This document shows, one piece after another, positions 14,091-35,796 of a DNA stretch of 64,000 nucleotides. Both the position numbers and the translations under genes were made by a program. Every line of letters begins with the position of its first letter. Position 1 is the stretch's first letter. Source of the stretch: an uncultured Caldisericota bacterium (GTDB taxonomy: Bacteria; Caldisericota; Caldisericia; Cryosericales; Cryosericaceae); contig CAIQIK010000019.1 of NCBI GenBank assembly GCA_903871855.1, forward strand, positions 62,001 to 126,000, given 5' to 3'. Under the pieces are notes generated by a model. It was not told the origin of the DNA and did no database searches. It was given only the letters and a program-made list of their open reading frames with translations.

Positions 14091-14127
14091 ACTGACCATC
14101 TCACTTGCAGGAGTCTTCTGATCCGTC

Positions 14128-14180
14128 ATTTCCCCCGAGCACTTTTTCCCAATGCGAGGGGTGTTTCTGAGGGGTGCTCT
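14128..14180. repeat. Interspersed repeat copy (CCCCCGAGCACTTTTTCCCAATGCGAGGGGTGTTTCTGAGGGG)
   Basis: Close match to the repeat units clustered at 33954-34175. Confidence 0.75.
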
Positions 14181-17888: not shown

Positions 17889-18613
17889 CTATGGTATGAA
17901 ACAGAGCGGGTTTTGGGCAGCGCCCTTTCCCCAGAGGGACATCGCCATGCGGTACATTGCCTTTGCATGAATGCGATCGTGCCAGATGAAGCGGCGCAGG
18001 ACCTTTTTCAGTGACCACCATTCCTCATAATCTCCCAGGACAGTGGCGGAATCCAGATAGCCTGGCAGCATTTCTATGCACCTTATGGCATTCAGCCGGT
18101 TCTCGCAAATATCTGCCGCATTATCCAGCTGGATGCCCAGCTGCGCCACATAGTAACTCGTTACGCTGTTTGTATGCGCCATCATTTCGTTTGCAGTCAG
18201 CGGGACTTCTCCATGAAAAGTCTTCCTGCTTGGCTTTGCCGCGAGATTCTTGTCTGGAATGGAAGCATACAGCGTCCTGAAATCCTCCGCCGATTTCAGA
18301 ACAAGACTTTTGAGGGAAGCGTATTCACTCTCTGTGAGCGGGGTCTTTTCGCTGTCAAAAATGACGTCACTGTCAGCATCGGTGACATTCAGGCTCGTTT
18401 TCCATTCCTGAACGATAGCAACCGAAACGTCAGACTGAGTTGCTGCATGGTTCCGCCATACGTTATATGAGAGAATTTCCATGGGAATCTTGCCAAGAGC
18501 TTCTTCCTTTGTTTTTCCGCGCGTGAATGCTCCGGGACAGTCTGCCACGTAGAGCAAGTATCCGCTTTCGTTAAACTCCACGACGATGTTCACTGCGTTC
18601 TCCACTGATGTCA
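17889..18613 (-). CDS. HicB-like N-terminal domain fused to a DinB-like C-terminal domain
   Basis: VEFNESGYLLYVADCPGAFTRGKTKEEALGKIPMEI (HicB-like) then a helical segment ending VLRRFIWHDRIHAKAMYRMA (DinB-like). The ORF runs to 18749 but that would overlap ssrA and its terminator; a GTG near 18613 preceded by AGGAAGG is more likely. Confidence 0.6.
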
Positions 18614-18670
18614 CCACCTTCCTGCTGGAGATGATCCTCAGCTGTCTGCAGTATTCTACCACATCAACGC

Positions 18671-18702
18671 AAAAGCCCACCGGCTGGGGTGCCGGTGGGC
18701 GG
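18671..18702 (-). terminator. Rho-independent terminator of ssrA
   Basis: Minus strand GCCCACCGGC-ACCCCA-GCCGGTGGGC followed by TTTT. Confidence 0.8.
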
Positions 18703-18715
18703 GTTGTTCTGTTCG

Positions 18716-19070
18716 TGGTGGAGGTGGCGAGAGTTGAACTCGCGTCCAAATACGTTAAACACAGCGTTACTACAGGTTTAGTCGACTGTTGTACCTTGCG
18801 CTCGGCCGGGAGTCGACGCCCCGCTCTGCACGATTTCCCGTTTGGTACTCTCTGGCAAGGAACGGGAACGACCCTCGCCTTCGAGACCCCTATAGACGCG
18901 CCCCTGACGGACCCAGGGATGGACGGCCCGGAGGAACGCTAGCCGCGCTTAGGCAGCTAGAGCGTAATTGTTATTGGCTTGTTTTTTTGTGACAGATGTT
19001 TAAAGAGGCCAACTGTCGTCCTCTACCTGCAACCCTGCACCTCACGTATCTGTCGAACCCCAGCACCCCC
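18716..19070 (-). ncRNA. ssrA: Transfer-messenger RNA (tmRNA)
   Basis: Minus strand 5' GGGGGTGCTGGGGTTCGACAG... and 3' GGACGCGAGTTCAACTCTCGCCACCTCCACCA; acceptor ends pair; tag ORF ends ...NNNYALAA-stop. Confidence 0.95.
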
Positions 19071-23554: not shown

Positions 23555-23803
23555 ACTCCGTGTGAAAAGAAAAAGTGGTCCGCTCGCGCGCCCACTTTTC
23601 GTATTCCACCAATATGAAACGTCCGAAAGCAGGGCCTCCGGACGTCATGTCGCTCAGTTGCTTGCCACGTTCATGACATTACAGAAAACAGTATACCTAT
23701 GAATGCCAGAATGGCAACCTCAGTTTCCTTTACAACTTGACGAGACCCTCCAACCAATCTACCACGAACCGACACGGCTCGCCTTTTCTTGCGGCTCAAA
23801 TCA

Positions 23804-26800
23804 CTATGGCTTCCTCCATTTCTTGAGCACGGGTCCCATGGCGTAGACGCCTTTCTTGCTGTATTCCGCATGGATCTCTGCTGCCTTACTGACGAATCCC
23901 TTTTGGCACAAAGTCTCAGCAATTTTCACTAGCACCTCTGTGGCATAGCTCAGTACTACATCCTTCTTCAAGGCAGTCAGCAGGACATTGCCAACGCGTT
24001 CCGCATCACTGTCGACAAATCGTGCAAGCGATTCGAGAATCTCAAGTCCACCTGTGACGTGCAGATCCCAATTGTCAAAACTCTTCTCCAACAAATCTTC
24101 AACTGAGGCTGGAAGCTTCTGAAACGCATAGAGCCATTCTGGCAATGCACTCAACAGTTTCGTTCGTGTGCTTGAGCCTGCTACTCGACTGATAGCCTTG
24201 ATCATCTTTGGCCACAATTGCATCAGTTTCTCGCGTCGCGGGTCTGTCCACTCCCTCTGCCGATTCGCGAAGTACCAGACAACCTCGCCAATTCTGATTT
24301 CTTCTCCATCATCTAACATCTGGTCCATCAGCCCATCATCAAGATCATAGACGTACGCCAAGCACACGTGACTGGCAAGAGACTTCTCTGTTTCCTCTTC
24401 CGAGAAGCGCATTGCAAGAGCGAAGGAGTATTCGCCTCGTTCCCGCAAGAGAAGGAAGAGCTCTTGGTACACCCTCGATGACATCAGATAGGCAGAAAAC
24501 GCATCGATCCACCGATCTGTCGATTCCTGTGGAAAAATTTGGTCAAGGTGATCCGAAACCCAGCTGGGATCCAGGATATTAAGTAGATAGAGTCCTACTG
24601 CAATTCCTTCCCGCGCCTCTGTGTCGGCGGCCGGATCGGTGTAGGCCAAAGCTATCTCCAGTAGCTCGTTCGCCCATCCTGGAATACGCTGAAGATGCCT
24701 TGTACCACTGTTCTTCGCCCCTGCAAGGCTCCAAGCAACAAGAATTGTGGCTTTGAGCGCTGCAGCAAGAGCAGAGTTGACCGCTCTCCACCTTGGTTTC
24801 GTCAGCGCTGGATCCGTGACGGGATATCGTGAAGCGACCTCTGTCGCTTCTTGAAGCAGTTTCGGGATGAGATCGATCTCATCTCCCGTCCACCTACCTA
24901 CTTGGTTGCTGGCGACGACCGACACGAAGTCACAGACAGCTTCACACGCTCCTCGTCGATCCTCTCTGGCTGCATCTTCTGCAGAGTATTCCCGTAATCG
25001 AGTCAGCATGGATTCTCCCAACCGGAACACTGGAAGCACTTGGAAGGGTTCCTTGTTCTGAATCGCCGATGCAAAGCCCTGGAAGATGGCTTGTAGGCAA
25101 TCCAGCGGGATTCCCGACAAATCCTGAAGCCCGTTTCTAATCAGTCTCTCCGGATCACCAGACACCAGTTCCCGTATGGCACTATAGATATCCGACATGT
25201 CCGTTGCGTTGAGAAATGCCGCCAACTCTTCGTTCGTCTCGAATGCCTGGAGACGTTCTACGGCGACAATTCCGGTAGTGTCTCTCACGGCCGGTCCAAT
25301 GTGGAAACTCCACTCCGGGCATGTTGGTCGTGGGCGACCGGACCAATTCTCTTTGACAAGGTCTTGAATACGGGCGTCTATGCTGGTCTCCACAGACAGC
25401 AACCACTTTGCCTTGAACCGTATCCCTCGGGCATCCCTTGTAGTCCTATCACCCCCATCTTGGCGGCCCCACTTGGATCCAGCTTCTTCCAGCCATCCAA
25501 GAAGGACTCCAACTTGCTCATGGTTCATCTCATGCGTATGAGTGGACAGGAGCATGTAGACTTCGTGAAAGGCATCGACATCCAATAGTGCATTCCGTCT
25601 GGAGCTCCAAAACGCCGCCGATACCCCACCGTAATGCCTATCGACGAGGTAATAACCCATACGTCTCAGAATACTGGCTCTTGACACCAGTAGTCTTTCC
25701 ACAAGATCCTTCCGATGTTCAGGTGACATTTCATCACATGCAAGACGTGTGAACCTGACAATCGCCATCGGAGCAGAGAATGCTTGATCCTTGTTCTGGT
25801 CGGATTCTTCGATTGACGGAACCCAGTAGTCGGTTCTGTCGAAACCCGACTCACGCTGCCAGTTGCGCAGTGCGCCTACTCCCATTTGCGCGACGTTTGG
25901 GCTGCATACAGACACCAATTCAGCAGCATGTGGGAGGACAACATTCTCGAATTCCCACGTTACTTCACGTTGAGCATGTTCGTCCTCTTTGTTGGATAAC
26001 GAACGGAGACACACACCGAGTATCATCCTCAGTGCGATGCTGTTACCCTGTTTGATCAGGAAGCAGATTAGTTCCTCGGAAACCGTGATCACGAGTAGAA
26101 TACTAGTACTTAGGGTGGTCATCAACGCTAGGGCTGCTTTGCGTAGCCCCGGATCTGCCAAGACCCTTTTCGAGGTAAGGAGCCCTCGAAGAATGAAGGA
26201 TGCTGTCCTCAAATCGTACTGTTTGTCTGATTTCTCGATTGAGAATCGTGCAAGCTTGGCGGCAATGCCTGCTAGCACTTCAGCCACTTCGACATCTTGG
26301 GTCTTGATCGCAAATGCAGCCATTCGATCAAGATACGCGAACGGATTCCAGAAAGCGCCTTCGGATGAACCTCTCGTCTCCTTCATTGATGGATGGTCTT
26401 CCGGGGAGAAGCATCTATTCTCATCCAGTGGGCGGAGCCATGACCAGCAGATTTCGTCGGTCGAATTCGAGAGGATGTTGAAGAAGAACGCCTCAAGATC
26501 AGACCGCAGCAGCAAGTCCCGGATGTCCTCCATTGTCGTTTGGTCATATGCCTGTGTGGCAACCTGTCGAAGTCGCTCCTGCTCATCCGGAAGATTGGCA
26601 TACCGCTGAGCAGGTGCAAGCTGCCGACTCCAGCTCCTGATAACATAGTAGAGTTCGTCGTATCCACGGATGTCAGTGTTATACGAAATCAGCCTGATCC
26701 GCATGTCGTCGTAGTAGGTCTGCAGATATGATTTGCGAAAACCATCGGCAGAATCGTCAATAAGCATGAAGTGCCTGTGCGGATGACGAGGCGTAGTCTC

Positions 26801-27502
26801 GGGCTGTCTGAAGATGAATTCCAGGATTTCGAACTCTGAGAGGCCATATCCCAGGAACAGGATGTTGCACTCACTGAAGAGGTACTCCAGAAAAGCCGGA
26901 ATATGACTCCGTGTCGACCCTTTGTACTGTTCGAAGTACTGCTCAAGCGTGAACACCACATTCTCTATGTCACTGACTGAACCATGGAGATGATACAGAA
27001 AACCAGATCTTGGCTTTGATGGGAAGTCCTCTGCTTTGGAGACGATCCTTCTCTCGTCGAAGCACCGATCGAGGTTCTTGTCTGCGTTGGTAGTAACAAT
27101 GCAGAACTGCTGCATTCTAGACAGGCGATCGAACACATCCATGAACCTCTTCTTCTTGCTGTTCGGGGTCAATGCGGACCGCAATTTGTGATAGAAGAGT
27201 TTCGCTTCGTTATGATCATTGAGCATATGATAGCAAATCGTCATAAGCTGCCGGTGATCAGTAAGAGATTTCAATTCCTTGAAGGCTCTATGAGTAATGA
27301 ACTTCTTCTCATAGCAGAGTCGCAACAGATCTGCAGCGAGATCGTCCCAGCCCTCACAACCTACCAGCCGCGAAACTCCTGCGCCAACAAATAGGACAAG
27401 CGTTCCACGATTTACCGCTTCAATAATCTCGGAGTCTGGGATTGGTACCCCTGCTTCGGGATCCTCTCTTTCGGTCATGTCATGCGCCCCCTTGGTCACC
27501 AA
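23804..27502 (-). CDS. Large SIR2-like NADase-domain protein (1232 aa) with long helical C-terminus; putative antiphage effector
   Basis: SIR2 motifs LVLFVGAGVSRLVG, IVTTNADKNLDRC, FLYHLHGSVSD, ILFLGYGLSEFEILEF in the first ~250 aa; about 950 aa of helix-rich sequence after that. Confidence 0.85.
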   Translation of the reverse strand: MVTKGAHDMTEREDPEAGVPIPDSEIIEAVNRGTLVLFVGAGVSRLVGCEGWDDLAADLLRLCYEKKFITHRAFKELKSLTDHRQLMTICYHMLNDHNEAKLFYHKLRSALTPNSKKKRFMDVFDRLSRMQQFCIVTTNADKNLDRCFDERRIVSKAEDFPSKPRSGFLYHLHGSVSDIENVVFTLEQYFEQYKGSTRSHIPAFLEYLFSECNILFLGYGLSEFEILEFIFRQPETTPRHPHRHFMLIDDSADGFRKSYLQTYYDDMRIRLISYNTDIRGYDELYYVIRSWSRQLAPAQRYANLPDEQERLRQVATQAYDQTTMEDIRDLLLRSDLEAFFFNILSNSTDEICWSWLRPLDENRCFSPEDHPSMKETRGSSEGAFWNPFAYLDRMAAFAIKTQDVEVAEVLAGIAAKLARFSIEKSDKQYDLRTASFILRGLLTSKRVLADPGLRKAALALMTTLSTSILLVITVSEELICFLIKQGNSIALRMILGVCLRSLSNKEDEHAQREVTWEFENVVLPHAAELVSVCSPNVAQMGVGALRNWQRESGFDRTDYWVPSIEESDQNKDQAFSAPMAIVRFTRLACDEMSPEHRKDLVERLLVSRASILRRMGYYLVDRHYGGVSAAFWSSRRNALLDVDAFHEVYMLLSTHTHEMNHEQVGVLLGWLEEAGSKWGRQDGGDRTTRDARGIRFKAKWLLSVETSIDARIQDLVKENWSGRPRPTCPEWSFHIGPAVRDTTGIVAVERLQAFETNEELAAFLNATDMSDIYSAIRELVSGDPERLIRNGLQDLSGIPLDCLQAIFQGFASAIQNKEPFQVLPVFRLGESMLTRLREYSAEDAAREDRRGACEAVCDFVSVVASNQVGRWTGDEIDLIPKLLQEATEVASRYPVTDPALTKPRWRAVNSALAAALKATILVAWSLAGAKNSGTRHLQRIPGWANELLEIALAYTDPAADTEAREGIAVGLYLLNILDPSWVSDHLDQIFPQESTDRWIDAFSAYLMSSRVYQELFLLLRERGEYSFALAMRFSEEETEKSLASHVCLAYVYDLDDGLMDQMLDDGEEIRIGEVVWYFANRQREWTDPRREKLMQLWPKMIKAISRVAGSSTRTKLLSALPEWLYAFQKLPASVEDLLEKSFDNWDLHVTGGLEILESLARFVDSDAERVGNVLLTALKKDVVLSYATEVLVKIAETLCQKGFVSKAAEIHAEYSKKGVYAMGPVLKKWRKP

Positions 27503-27866
27503 GACCGGAAAACGACTTCACGCTTGTTCCGGTTTAGGTCAGTCAACCTCCAACGACACAAGCATTGCGAACTACAATTCTGCTACCCGTAGATTTGGAC
27601 CTCGACGTGTGTTGCACACAATTCAAGACTCGTCAGTAGCGCAGGACCCTATCTGGACGTCTCCTGCACTATTCTCGTTTTCGGCATCTCGGTGAGGGCA
27701 CAGTAACTACCGTGCCGTCACGATACGAGCAGTTCGCCCTCGTGGCAGCAACGATGTACACCACTAGTGTCATCAACGCGACACCGCTCCCGCAGGACTT
27801 CCAATCTACTCTTCAGCATGGTAGGTGTTCGCCAAGAGCGATACCGGGTGTGAGACCAACATAATC

Positions 27867-28433
27867 TCACACAGTCGTCGGAGTCGGTAGATCAGAGTCA
27901 ACGAGTATAACCATGACAGGCACTGCGGGAAACGTCCTCTTCAGCCTCTCGATGTCATACACCAGTTGTTCGCCGTAGGAGACACCGGATGACATCCGAT
28001 GGTGGAGAGTGTGCGACGGGACAATCTCGATGCCGACGTCAGCTTTGTTCTCGTTGAAGAAGTACTGGAACTTGGCCATATCGTAGAACATGAATGCATA
28101 CTTGCCAAACTGTACTTCAACAAGCACCTTGCCCTTGACGAAATCAACTTGCTTGAACGCTCCTGGTATCTCGATGCCGCTGTTGGGTACAGAAATGGTG
28201 TACGTGTCTCTTAGTTCCTGGTACCCACGGGCATTGAACAGCGTCTTGAAACCGGCATTCAGGTCAATGGGCGACACAAGCTCTCGTCCCATCTTCGTCT
28301 TTTCCCTGCTCACCTTCGCCGTTCGCAGTTCCACCTTAGAGACTACGTCCCTAATCTCCTGGAGTATCTCAGGCTGATGTACTTGCAGAATTTCCTCTCC
28401 GCCCAAGTGTGAGTACGTATAGACAATCTTCAT
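27867..28433 (-). CDS. BglII-family type II restriction endonuclease
   Basis: FKQVDFVKGKVLVEVQFGKYAFMFYDMAKFQYF parallels R.BglII IDFGKRDTLVEVQFSNYPFLL, including the D..ExQ catalytic signature; overlaps the MTase gene by 4 bp. Confidence 0.75.
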   Translation of the reverse strand: MKIVYTYSHLGGEEILQVHQPEILQEIRDVVSKVELRTAKVSREKTKMGRELVSPIDLNAGFKTLFNARGYQELRDTYTISVPNSGIEIPGAFKQVDFVKGKVLVEVQFGKYAFMFYDMAKFQYFFNENKADVGIEIVPSHTLHHRMSSGVSYGEQLVYDIERLKRTFPAVPVMVILVDSDLPTPTTV

Positions 28434-29374
28434 GTGTGCCCCCTTCGCGCGCTCTTCTCTCGCACAAACAGACTCTCTGGATCGCTTCCCGGCAAGTATA
28501 CCATCTTGGGCGGGATTCCAGTGCCTCCATTGGGGTCATAGACCGGCCTCTCCATCGGGCGCACCCGCAGTTCTCCTCGTTGGGCGAGATCAACTCTGTC
28601 ACGCGCAATCTGGCAGTACTCCGAGGATATCTCCGCTCCCATGGCTCTTCTGTTGTGCATGACCGCCGCAATCAATGTTGAGCCAACCCCCATGAATGGG
28701 TCCAGCACCCAGTCACGTTCATTGCTCATCGACAGGACCAATCTCTCAACCAACTCTACTGGAAACTGCGCTGGATGAATTGTCTTTTCTACATGGTTTG
28801 CCTTAACGTTAGGGATATCCCACACGTCGCTGGGATTCTTTCCTAGCGGGTTTCCCGAGAGTTCCCCTTGACGGGGTCCCTTAAAGTAGCGCTTTTGTGG
28901 ATACTTCTGGGGTACACGGACAGGGTCGAGGTTGAAAACATAAGTGTCCGCTTTTGTGAACCAATTGATGGTCTCGTATCTCCCGGAGAATCGTTTGCTG
29001 GCGTGAAGTCCATGTTCAAAGTGCCAGATGATGCGGTTTCTCATGTGTAGATTGTGCTGTTGGAAAAAGGGATATACCAGAACATCCAGAGGAATGATCT
29101 CTCCGTTGTCCACATAGTTGCCAACTTGCCAGCAGATACTCCCATTGTCCGAAAGTACTCTGACACATTCGTCGATAATCCTCTGCTGCCACCTAAGATA
29201 GTCATCCAAGCTGGTCCTTCGCTCGTAGGATTTCCCAATGTTGTACGGAGGTGAGGTGACGATCAGGTTGATCGAACCTGACGGTATCCGTCCCAAAAGA
29301 TCAAGGCAGTCGCCGCAGTAGAGAACAAGATCGGCCTTGGAATCCCAGTTATCAGTGATCTTCAGTTTTCCCAT
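28430..29374 (-). CDS. Site-specific DNA methyltransferase (TSPPY type, N4-cytosine or N6-adenine)
   Basis: LIVTSPPYNIGKSYERR motif IV and DWVLDPFMGVGSTLIAAVMHNRRAMGAEIS motif I in beta-class order. Confidence 0.93.
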   Translation of the reverse strand: MGKLKITDNWDSKADLVLYCGDCLDLLGRIPSGSINLIVTSPPYNIGKSYERRTSLDDYLRWQQRIIDECVRVLSDNGSICWQVGNYVDNGEIIPLDVLVYPFFQQHNLHMRNRIIWHFEHGLHASKRFSGRYETINWFTKADTYVFNLDPVRVPQKYPQKRYFKGPRQGELSGNPLGKNPSDVWDIPNVKANHVEKTIHPAQFPVELVERLVLSMSNERDWVLDPFMGVGSTLIAAVMHNRRAMGAEISSEYCQIARDRVDLAQRGELRVRPMERPVYDPNGGTGIPPKMVYLPGSDPESLFVREKSARRGHT

Positions 29375-29392
29375 TTTCTCCCTTCCATCGTT

Positions 29393-32849: not shown

Positions 32850-34196
32850 TCACTGGGCCGCGAAGCGGGCAGCAGCCTGTGCCTGGTCGACAGAAACCAC
32901 TTCGACCACGGCATCGTAGACAAAGTCGAAGAACACCTGCGAACGCGCGTTGAGCACGATCTTCAGGGGCACGTTGACCAGCGAGCCTGTCGTACCGACG
33001 GTGACCGTCGCCGTGGCAGTGACGGCCTCTCCCTCGAAGGTGAACCGGCCGCTCATGCTCCAGACGTCACACGCCTGCCCCAGCAGCTGCACCGGAGCCT
33101 GCTTCTCGATGGTGAAGAGGCGCGGCGAGAACGTCGCCGGCAGTCCAAGAAGATCCTCGCAGCTTTCCTGCAGGATGCGCGCAGCTGCGGCGGCAGTCTC
33201 GCCCTTGGCGGCGTACGCCCCGTTCTCGAACACATAACCTGTTCCGCCGCGGACCATGAGCGATGCTGTCGGGTTCACGGGGTCACCACTCATCACAAGA
33301 ATGTCATTCCCATTCTTGACGACACGGCCGTCGAACGACTTGTTTTCCCCACCAAGCGTTCGGTAGTACGAGGCTGTGAGCTCGTACGCCGGAAGCGTAG
33401 CAAGAGACGAGAGCGGCAGGAGCTGTCCCTCCTGAAGCGTCACCTTGACCGCCTTGGTGTTCTTTCCAATAACCAGGTTGAATGTGGCGTCGGCAAATCC
33501 CTGCTTCGTGACTCTTCCAGCATAGGTCCCTTCTGCGAGACCCTCGAACGTGAATGTTCCATCTGACCCTGTCGTCGTGGTCGTATTCCACACGGTTACG
33601 GAGGCCCCGGCTATGGGCTGGCCGCCGGACGTCACCGTCCCGGCGCTAAGGAAGAGCGGCGTGAGCTGGACAATCGTCGGCAGCTGCGTGAGGTCCGTCA
33701 CCTGGATGAAGGCCTGCTGGTACCCCGTGGCGTCGACACTCATCTGCGTCCGGTCGGCCTGAACCTGTCCCGAAACCGTTCCGGTCGCATCGGACCTGAG
33801 GGACTCGGAGCCGCTGGAGTTGGTGAATACGAGCGTCGCATTGGCTACGCCTTTGCCTGAGTACGCGGAGACGATCCGGAGTGAAACAGCGTCGCGGCGG
33901 GCGCAGCCGGCGAGCGAGAAAATGACAAGCAACAGAGCGAGGCCAAGCGCCAGCCCCCGAGCACTTTTTTCCCTCGCATCCTTTTGTCCAAGATGCGAGG
34001 TGTTCTTCCATGCCCCCGAGCCCAAGGATGTTTTCTCCCGAGCACTTTTTTCCCATGCGAGGGGTGCTGTCGTATCCGAGGGTGTTCTGCATGTTAGTCC
34101 AATACGAGGGGTGCTTCTGAGGGGCGGTTCCCCCCGAGCACTTTGGTTCAAGGCAAGGGGTGCTTCTGCCCGGCGGAAGCTCATCCTTTTCATCAT
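32850..34196 (-). CDS. Putative lipoprotein with carboxypeptidase-regulatory-like (CNA-B-like) repeats
   Basis: Lipobox-like LALLLVIFSLAGC; VTSGGQPIAGASVTVWNTTTTTGSDGTFTFEGLAEGTYAGRV. The N-terminal ~80 residues are repeat-derived. Confidence 0.8.
   Translation of the reverse strand: MMKRMSFRRAEAPLALNQSARGEPPLRSTPRIGLTCRTPSDTTAPLAWEKSAREKTSLGSGAWKNTSHLGQKDAREKSARGLALGLALLLVIFSLAGCARRDAVSLRIVSAYSGKGVANATLVFTNSSGSESLRSDATGTVSGQVQADRTQMSVDATGYQQAFIQVTDLTQLPTIVQLTPLFLSAGTVTSGGQPIAGASVTVWNTTTTTGSDGTFTFEGLAEGTYAGRVTKQGFADATFNLVIGKNTKAVKVTLQEGQLLPLSSLATLPAYELTASYYRTLGGENKSFDGRVVKNGNDILVMSGDPVNPTASLMVRGGTGYVFENGAYAAKGETAAAAARILQESCEDLLGLPATFSPRLFTIEKQAPVQLLGQACDVWSMSGRFTFEGEAVTATATVTVGTTGSLVNVPLKIVLNARSQVFFDFVYDAVVEVVSVDQAQAAARFAAQ
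33954..34175. repeat. Cluster of about four CCCGAGCACTTTTTTCCCATGCGAGGGGTGCTTCTGAGGGG-type repeats inside an ORF N-terminus
   Basis: Repeated cccgagcact and gcgaggggtgct cores; a related copy lies at 14128-14180. Confidence 0.8.
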
Positions 34197-34730: not shown

Positions 34731-34911
34731 TCGGAACCTCCCGTTCCTGTACTGCCAGGTTCAAGTATAGTGGCTGGTGGCCGCCGCACAAGCCGAAGTA
34801 CGCGAAGATCGGAGGCGTCCGAGTCGGATATTGAAATGTTGCGCTGCTGTGGATAACATGTGAACAGTGTGAACAGATTTGCCATCCGCGCCTCTCGGCA
34901 AAGGAGGGTTC

Positions 34912-35796
34912 GTGGTTCGACCATTGCGCATCGAGTTCCCAGGCGCCGTCTACCTGGTTTCCGACACCGGTTATGCGGGTCACTCCATCATCCAGTGCGA
35001 TGGCGATTACGTGCAGTTCCTCACAGACCTCATGTCGGTGGCGGCGAACCTGGGCTGGCGCATCTACGCGTGGTGCATGCTGCCGGACCGCTACAGTTTC
35101 GTCGTGGAGACGCCCCATGGAGATCTCGGCACAGGCATGCGTCGGTTCAGCAGCAGCTACACGCGGCATGCGAACCACCAGAACAAACGATCGGGGCGAG
35201 CCTTCCGCGGACCCTATCAAACCGTCCTCCTGGAACCCGACGTATGGTTGCAGCCAGTCTGCCGGTATGTCGTCCTTCAGCCCGTGGCATCCACCGTGGT
35301 CGCCACCCCCGAGGAATGGTCATGGAGCAGTTATCAGGCAATGGTCATGAATACCCACGTGCGGAGTGCCCCGTTTGCAGCCGAGTCTCTGCTGTCACAT
35401 TTCGGGCAAACCCGGGAAGAGGCTATCGCCTCGTATGCCGACTACATACGGGCGGGCATCGGCCAGCCCTCCCCTCTCGCTCACGTGATGCCGCCGGGCA
35501 TCCTGGGGACACAGGCGTTCGTCCAGATCGTCACCGAACACCTGGTGGGCAGAACGTCCGATCCCTCGGTCGCCACAACGCTCCTGATGCTTGCGCGGCC
35601 ATCCCTGGCGCAGATCTTCGGGCCCGATGCCCGGCATGAACGCTCGCAGCTGCCCTTGCGGGTCGCGGCAGCCGTCCATCTTGGTTATTCACTCGTGCAA
35701 ATCGGTGACCAGCTGGGCGTCCACTATACGACGGTCAGCCGGTACCTCCGCGCGGCGCAGAGTGAACAGAAGGGGGCACCTCCCCCTGTTCGCTGA
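34912..35796 (+). CDS. RAYT-like (Y1/TnpA_REP) transposase-derived protein lacking the HUH histidines, with C-terminal HTH
   Basis: RPLRIEFPGAVYLVSDTG, GWRIYAWCMLPDRYSFVVETPHG (canonical DNHYHLLLETP-like), SGRAFRGPYQTVLLE, EEWSWSSYQAM; GTG start with AAGGAGG. Confidence 0.8.
   Translation: MVRPLRIEFPGAVYLVSDTGYAGHSIIQCDGDYVQFLTDLMSVAANLGWRIYAWCMLPDRYSFVVETPHGDLGTGMRRFSSSYTRHANHQNKRSGRAFRGPYQTVLLEPDVWLQPVCRYVVLQPVASTVVATPEEWSWSSYQAMVMNTHVRSAPFAAESLLSHFGQTREEAIASYADYIRAGIGQPSPLAHVMPPGILGTQAFVQIVTEHLVGRTSDPSVATTLLMLARPSLAQIFGPDARHERSQLPLRVAAAVHLGYSLVQIGDQLGVHYTTVSRYLRAAQSEQKGAPPPVR

Follow-up and report, generated by a model that had tools for sequence, protein, structure and literature searches.

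A putative, very divergent DSR1-family SIR2 defence protein in an inserted island of a Caldisericota bacterium, and the varied N-terminal partners of its C-terminal scaffold

The inserted island and its genes

The window, i.e. the whole stretch of 64,000 nucleotides from an uncultured Caldisericota bacterium that was analysed here, contains a three-gene island flanked by dnaE on one side and rimP-nusA-infB on the other. The features in and around this island are:

23690..23717, minus strand: promoter-like site of the rimP operon, a consensus match only, conserved in congeners and intact after the insertion
23751..29392: inserted defence island (methylase, endonuclease and SIR2 protein), 5.64 kb; the site is empty in 10 congeners
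23804..27502, minus strand (27502 to 23804): gene for the putative DSR1-family SIR2 protein, an intact uninterrupted ORF of 1232 codons from TTG 27502
26648..27448, minus strand: SIR2 NADase effector domain, approximately residues 19-285 (SIR2_2, motif alignment, and phmmer to ThsA and DSR2 chains)
23807..26641, minus strand: putative C-terminal helical scaffold/sensor, residues 288-1232 (PADLOC model PDLC04166, in-house scaffold HMM, all-helical model and remote Dsr1 homology)
27867..28433, minus strand: BglII-like type II restriction endonuclease, 188 aa (PF09195 Endonuc-BglII, 7.4e-24; PADLOC REase_II, 3.1e-40)
28430..29374, minus strand: N6/N4 DNA methyltransferase, 314 aa (Pfam N6_N4_Mtase, 2.7e-58; PADLOC MTase_II, 4e-89)

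An initial annotation of this DNA had recorded the 1232-aa ORF, which is indeed uninterrupted, but had omitted that it lies on the minus strand. An in-frame ATG is present at 27478, 8 codons past the TTG; as it is preceded by the ribosome-site-like stretch AAGGGGG and the N-termini of homologues begin close to it, the protein probably starts there and is approximately 1224 aa long. The methylase and endonuclease genes overlap by 4 nt and, combining a BglII-family endonuclease with a methylase gene, represent a type II restriction-modification (R-M) system of the BglII type. This pair lies directly upstream of the SIR2 gene on the same strand, in agreement with its placement directly beside the gene in the initial annotation, although the accompanying statement that the gene sits away from housekeeping operons is contradicted by its position between dnaE and rimP-nusA-infB.

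In all 10 congeneric genomes with a readable site, dnaE and rimP are approximately 0.2 kb apart with nothing between them, and nucleotide alignments with the congeners stop at the dnaE stop codon (29393) and restart at 23750. The GC content is 51% in the island versus 59-60% in the flanking genes, and the corresponding GC3 values are 0.56-0.65 and 0.77-0.82. An integrase is absent from the three-gene island (23751-29392), and the other species of the genus that were searched contain no full-length match to the window protein. The combination of the island with the empty site strongly supports the horizontal gain of a defence unit.

Elsewhere in the window, a tmRNA gene (18716-19070, minus strand; tag VTKKQANNNYALAA) is overlapped at its end by the called ORF 17889-18749, the N-terminal part of which is probably non-coding. 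A 55-nt dispersed repeat occurs at 14115-14169, 34018-34072 and 34114-34168; two of these fall within the N-terminal region of the ORF 32850-34196 (448 aa, as against 377-389 aa in the congeners at L090 and L093), where they look like in-frame insertions, and a transposase-like ORF (34879-35796) is found near them.

The SIR2 domain, the helical C-terminus and the relationship to DSR1

The sole Pfam match in the window protein is to SIR2_2 (E 2.9e-20, residues 135-263). The protein displays the motifs GAGVS (G40), TTNAD (N139, codon 27086-27088), LHGS (H173, codon 26984-26986) and FLGYGLSEFE, and thereby the GAGxS, TTNxD and HG motifs looked for in DSR1; these align with their counterparts in other DSR-type proteins, and the HG is conserved in the alignment of canonical Dsr1 proteins. 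The remainder appears to be entirely helical: an AlphaFold2 model of 1200 residues, computed from an 8-row alignment, contains only helices past approximately residue 254, with a moderate confidence (mean pLDDT 68, pTM 0.36) at which the overall arrangement is not trustworthy. When this model (pLDDT 68) was compared with the PDB using Foldseek, DSR2 chains were recovered first, matching across both SIR2 and solenoid (E 1e-8, global TM ~0.2), followed by CAND1 and karyopherins, and generic HEAT-type proteins matched as well; with TM-scores near 0.2 these hits support the layout only. The scaffold profile recovered no significant match among PDB sequences. The SIR2 hallmarks and the helical C-terminus described in the initial annotation were thus both recovered, the latter at the moderate confidence of the model.

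The PADLOC model PDLC04166, which that resource names Dsr1 (the name itself being no proof of tested members), matches residues 23-1229 of the window protein over model positions 13-1224/1227 with E 2.9e-167, i.e. at full length from the SIR2 domain through the C-terminus. The views that the C-terminus carries nothing recognisable and that the effector is undescribed, both taken in the initial annotation, are therefore not supported. The second PADLOC Dsr1 model, PDLC04167, covers essentially the SIR2 part only, as does the NCBIfam Dsr1 equivalog NF041818, which scores 28 bits against a cut-off of 1400 over residues 18-155 only. Direct BLAST comparisons of the window protein with canonical Dsr1 are likewise convincing only in the SIR2 part, at 23-25% identity.

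Further evidence comes from profile comparisons. An alignment with hhalign of the C-terminal profile of 8 window-type proteins with that of 5 annotated or near Dsr1 proteins (from E. coli, Pantoea, Nitrosococcus, Acuticoccus and Sphingomonas) gave 98.5% with E 2.9e-15 over 573 columns, whereas controls with reversed and block-shuffled profiles reached at most 7.8%. The in-house scaffold HMM, which spans window residues 288-1231, has the window sequence among its seed and was built without canonical Dsr1 sequences, finds Pantoea Dsr1 at 1.8e-21 and Nitrosococcus Dsr1 at 4.4e-21, both collinear. Thus, both hhalign and hmmsearch (~1e-21) point to homology with the C-terminus of annotated Dsr1, and judging from the profiles the C-termini of the window protein and of experimentally founded DSR1 are remote homologues. 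Taken together, the PDLC04166 match and the profile comparison place the window protein, at the level of sequence, in a deep and very divergent branch of the DSR1 family rather than in an undescribed architecture. The initial annotation had held that a full-length alignment of the C-terminus with a described DSR would make the protein a known one: this is the case for the PADLOC Dsr1 model, and only remotely so for tested DSR1.

Relatives of the scaffold and their N-terminal partners

Relatives were collected from whole genomes and named contigs. Matches confined to SIR2, including a 484-aa protein of the congener G005, were set aside; the latter is encoded (L050:908-4005) between two genes with TIR-like N-termini, as judged by eye, in what is perhaps a Thoeris locus. 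Used alone as a query, the window protein found no related loci in the genome contigs. The scaffold alignment proved too divergent for searching by pattern. No relatives were found in viral contigs, phage records gave SIR2-domain matches only, in Lactococcus phage BK5-T, and the Vibrio scaffold (plasmid L007) recovered no other plasmid relatives.

The relatives are homologous over the whole C-terminus of approximately 945 aa, and differ in what accompanies it at the N-terminus. The SIR2 domain is fused to the scaffold in the window protein and in proteins from L033, Deltaproteobacteria (L070), Thermoplasmatales (L071), Atribacteria (L072, partial) and Clostridia (L073); it is encoded by a separate adjacent gene on the Vibrio plasmid (L007) and in Nitrospinota (L074), L037, L135 and L121. 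The designation of a single-gene effector in the initial annotation is accordingly fair at the window locus, while several relatives have the protein divided between two genes. A TIR domain is fused to the scaffold in L041 (TIR_2, 1.5e-24), with a SIR2 gene just upstream, and a PIN domain in L044 (PIN_12, 1.7e-21). At the former locus (L041:8749-13222) the SIR2 gene and the TIR-scaffold fusion are followed by RES-domain and ATPase-like genes, and an Eco57I-type methylase lies beside them. The N-terminus of the scaffold relative in L045 matched no assignable domain.

A further partner is an uncharacterised domain of about 215 aa, which is fused to the scaffold in L136, L137, L138, L139 and perhaps L035 (E 8.5e-4 only), and encoded by separate genes in six other loci:

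L038:10837-11523
L039:10254-10934
L040:8442-9194
L043:7952-8608
L133:8806-9438
L134:8067-8696

This family is marked by the motif HAVREIRNRLP and ends in LDEILEETN. Weak matches to pP_pnuc_1 or PADLOC Aga_Nuclease, falling short of the Pfam cut-off, are seen in some members, and the family is possibly a new effector. A natural case of exchange is seen at one locus within one genus, where the PIN domain is fused to the scaffold in G301 (L044:8647-15745) whereas G395 (L133:5895-12647) has a separate partner gene of about 210 aa, as does G394. Between G301 and G395 the flanking genes are 81-94% identical, the neighbouring methylase 69% and the scaffold 60%.

In a tree of the C-terminus, the PIN-bearing protein of L044 falls inside the clade with the uncharacterised partner (97/96) and the TIR fusion inside the SIR2 clade, and the minimum number of effector changes is 4. 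The window protein groups with the SIR2 and TIR rows (97/95), but its branch is very long and its exact place unsure. That one scaffold carries SIR2, TIR, PIN or the uncharacterised domain fits a sensor whose effectors can be exchanged. We somewhat favour the view that the C-terminus serves as a general chassis for sensing infection, found in bacteria and on an archaeal MAG contig, with which these four kinds of domain have been exchanged in fused or separate form and which is typically added to R-M loci. If so, DSR1 would represent a single effector variant within a broader family that is largely undescribed. The literature searched, which excluded most subscription journals, contained no account of a DSR1-type C-terminus being portable between SIR2, TIR, PIN and the uncharacterised domain, and this portability is probably new. 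The constancy of the DSR1-like C-terminus alongside a changing toxic part makes the idea of the C-terminus as a sensor testable, and among the relatives there are natural pairs that allow trigger and effector to be separated.

Predicted function and comparison with other SIR2 defence systems

It is quite likely that the window protein is a DSR1-family defence protein whose scaffold senses a phage component and releases the SIR2 domain, with hydrolysis of NAD+ and a fall in phage yield. The helical C-terminus of about 945 aa would act both as sensor and as assembly scaffold, keeping the N-terminal SIR2 domain inactive until the arrival of its trigger, a phage component that would probably be a structural or early protein. 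The scaffold would then change shape or assemble, such that the SIR2 pocket opens, NAD+ is hydrolysed and the infected cell stalls or dies, thereby lowering the phage yield. Travelling with the BglII-like R-M pair, the SIR2 protein would provide a second layer against phages that escape restriction. That the protein hydrolyses NAD+, is triggered by phage, inhibits itself until then and leads to this outcome is predicted by leaning on DSR2 and Avs5, whereas the domains, catalytic motifs, profile membership, island with its empty site, C-terminal portability and methylase enrichment (see below) are direct observations. The label of abortive infection, used in the initial annotation, may be wrong for this system, since DSR1 reportedly inhibits phage replication while leaving the cell alive (PMC10952713).

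The gene neighbourhoods of the relatives bear on a different reading, in which the protein guards the R-M system: it would keep watch over the adjacent restriction system, or over the DNA that this produces, and the NADase would fire on phage restriction inhibitors or restriction fragments. The three genes of the window form one inserted unit, and relatives adjoin type I, Eco57I/MmeI-like and type II systems, with HsdM/HsdS next to L038, L074 and L076, an HsdR-like gene next to L033, and Eco57I/MmeI-like methylases next to L036, L039, L041, L044 and L133 (all by Pfam). In 5 of 10 relative genomes the scaffold has an N6_Mtase gene within 10 kb, with 0.33 expected at random (P ~6e-6), a count that is approximate, with fragments merged by hand, contig ends ignored and the window left out. 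However, the neighbouring systems differ in type, no restriction system is found near L070, L071, G349, G223 and G293, and general clustering in defence islands accounts for the same pattern, so that we consider such guarding unlikely. The enrichment, along with the full-length Dsr1 match and the island shared with an R-M pair, supports the proposal in the initial annotation of a defence effector combining a SIR2 NADase with a large sensor or scaffold.

A role against plasmids or transformation, or in stabilising the island, might be entertained given that some relatives reside on plasmids and the window locus is a mobile island, but it is improbable because phages are the targets of those DSR1 and DSR2 proteins that have been tested (PMC10973363, PMC10952713). 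That the protein is a conventional sirtuin of the cell (a deacetylase) or a scaffold with a housekeeping role, as its SIR2 domain and position between dnaE and rimP could suggest, is hardly credible, as the gene is missing from the site in 10 of 10 congeners read, has a low GC content and no full-length match in any other member of the genus, and has a SIR2_2 type and a solenoid of the kind found in defence proteins.

We thus return to the DSR1-family defence protein as the preferred reading, under which the window gene widens the range of DSR1-type defence to a lineage that has received little study, and does so in a clean island for which the empty site serves as a control. With ThsA, Avs5 (a NADase-based defence; PMC12931631), SIR2-APAZ and SIR2-HerA it shares the coupling of a SIR2 NADase effector to a sensor; unlike in those systems, no domain or neighbour of the SLOG, STAND NTPase, APAZ or HerA kind was found. 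Matches to the Thoeris ThsA models are confined to the SIR2 part, and the island encodes no TIR gene. The Pfam scan detected no NTPase at E <= 1, and there was no APAZ match, the neighbours being the methylase, the BglII-like endonuclease, dnaE and rimP.

DSR2 of B. subtilis, a tail-tube sensor, comprises, as the window protein appears to, a SIR2 domain and a helical C-terminal domain; in DSR2 these form a tetramer (PMC10973363). The phage tail tube protein opens its pocket, which DSAD1 blocks, and NAD+ is depleted (PMC10973363). The catalytic N and H align with those of the window protein, sequence similarity being found in the SIR2 part only, and the PADLOC Dsr2 model PDLC02184 gave no match at E <= 1.

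The closest resemblance is to the PDLC04166 clade, comprising the proteins of L033 (G194), Thermoplasmatales (L071), Deltaproteobacteria (L070) and Clostridia (L073), which are equal to the window protein in length and domain order and homologous at full length, the protein of L033 being the nearest to the PADLOC model. Identity to them is 23-25% across approximately 1,200 residues, the window protein being the longest branch of the clade (2.17 changes per column), and it is fused whereas some members are split. Experimentally founded DSR1 (NF041818; E. coli, Pantoea and Nitrosococcus) forms a separate clade with a support of 100/100, in a tree rooted at the midpoint only, and has a GYxxxDP-type motif in place of the GYGLSEFE of the window protein; it likewise combines SIR2 with a helical C-terminus of similar size that is remotely homologous. 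By these comparisons the window gene is a very divergent member of the known DSR1 kind, and effector swapping is the newer observation.
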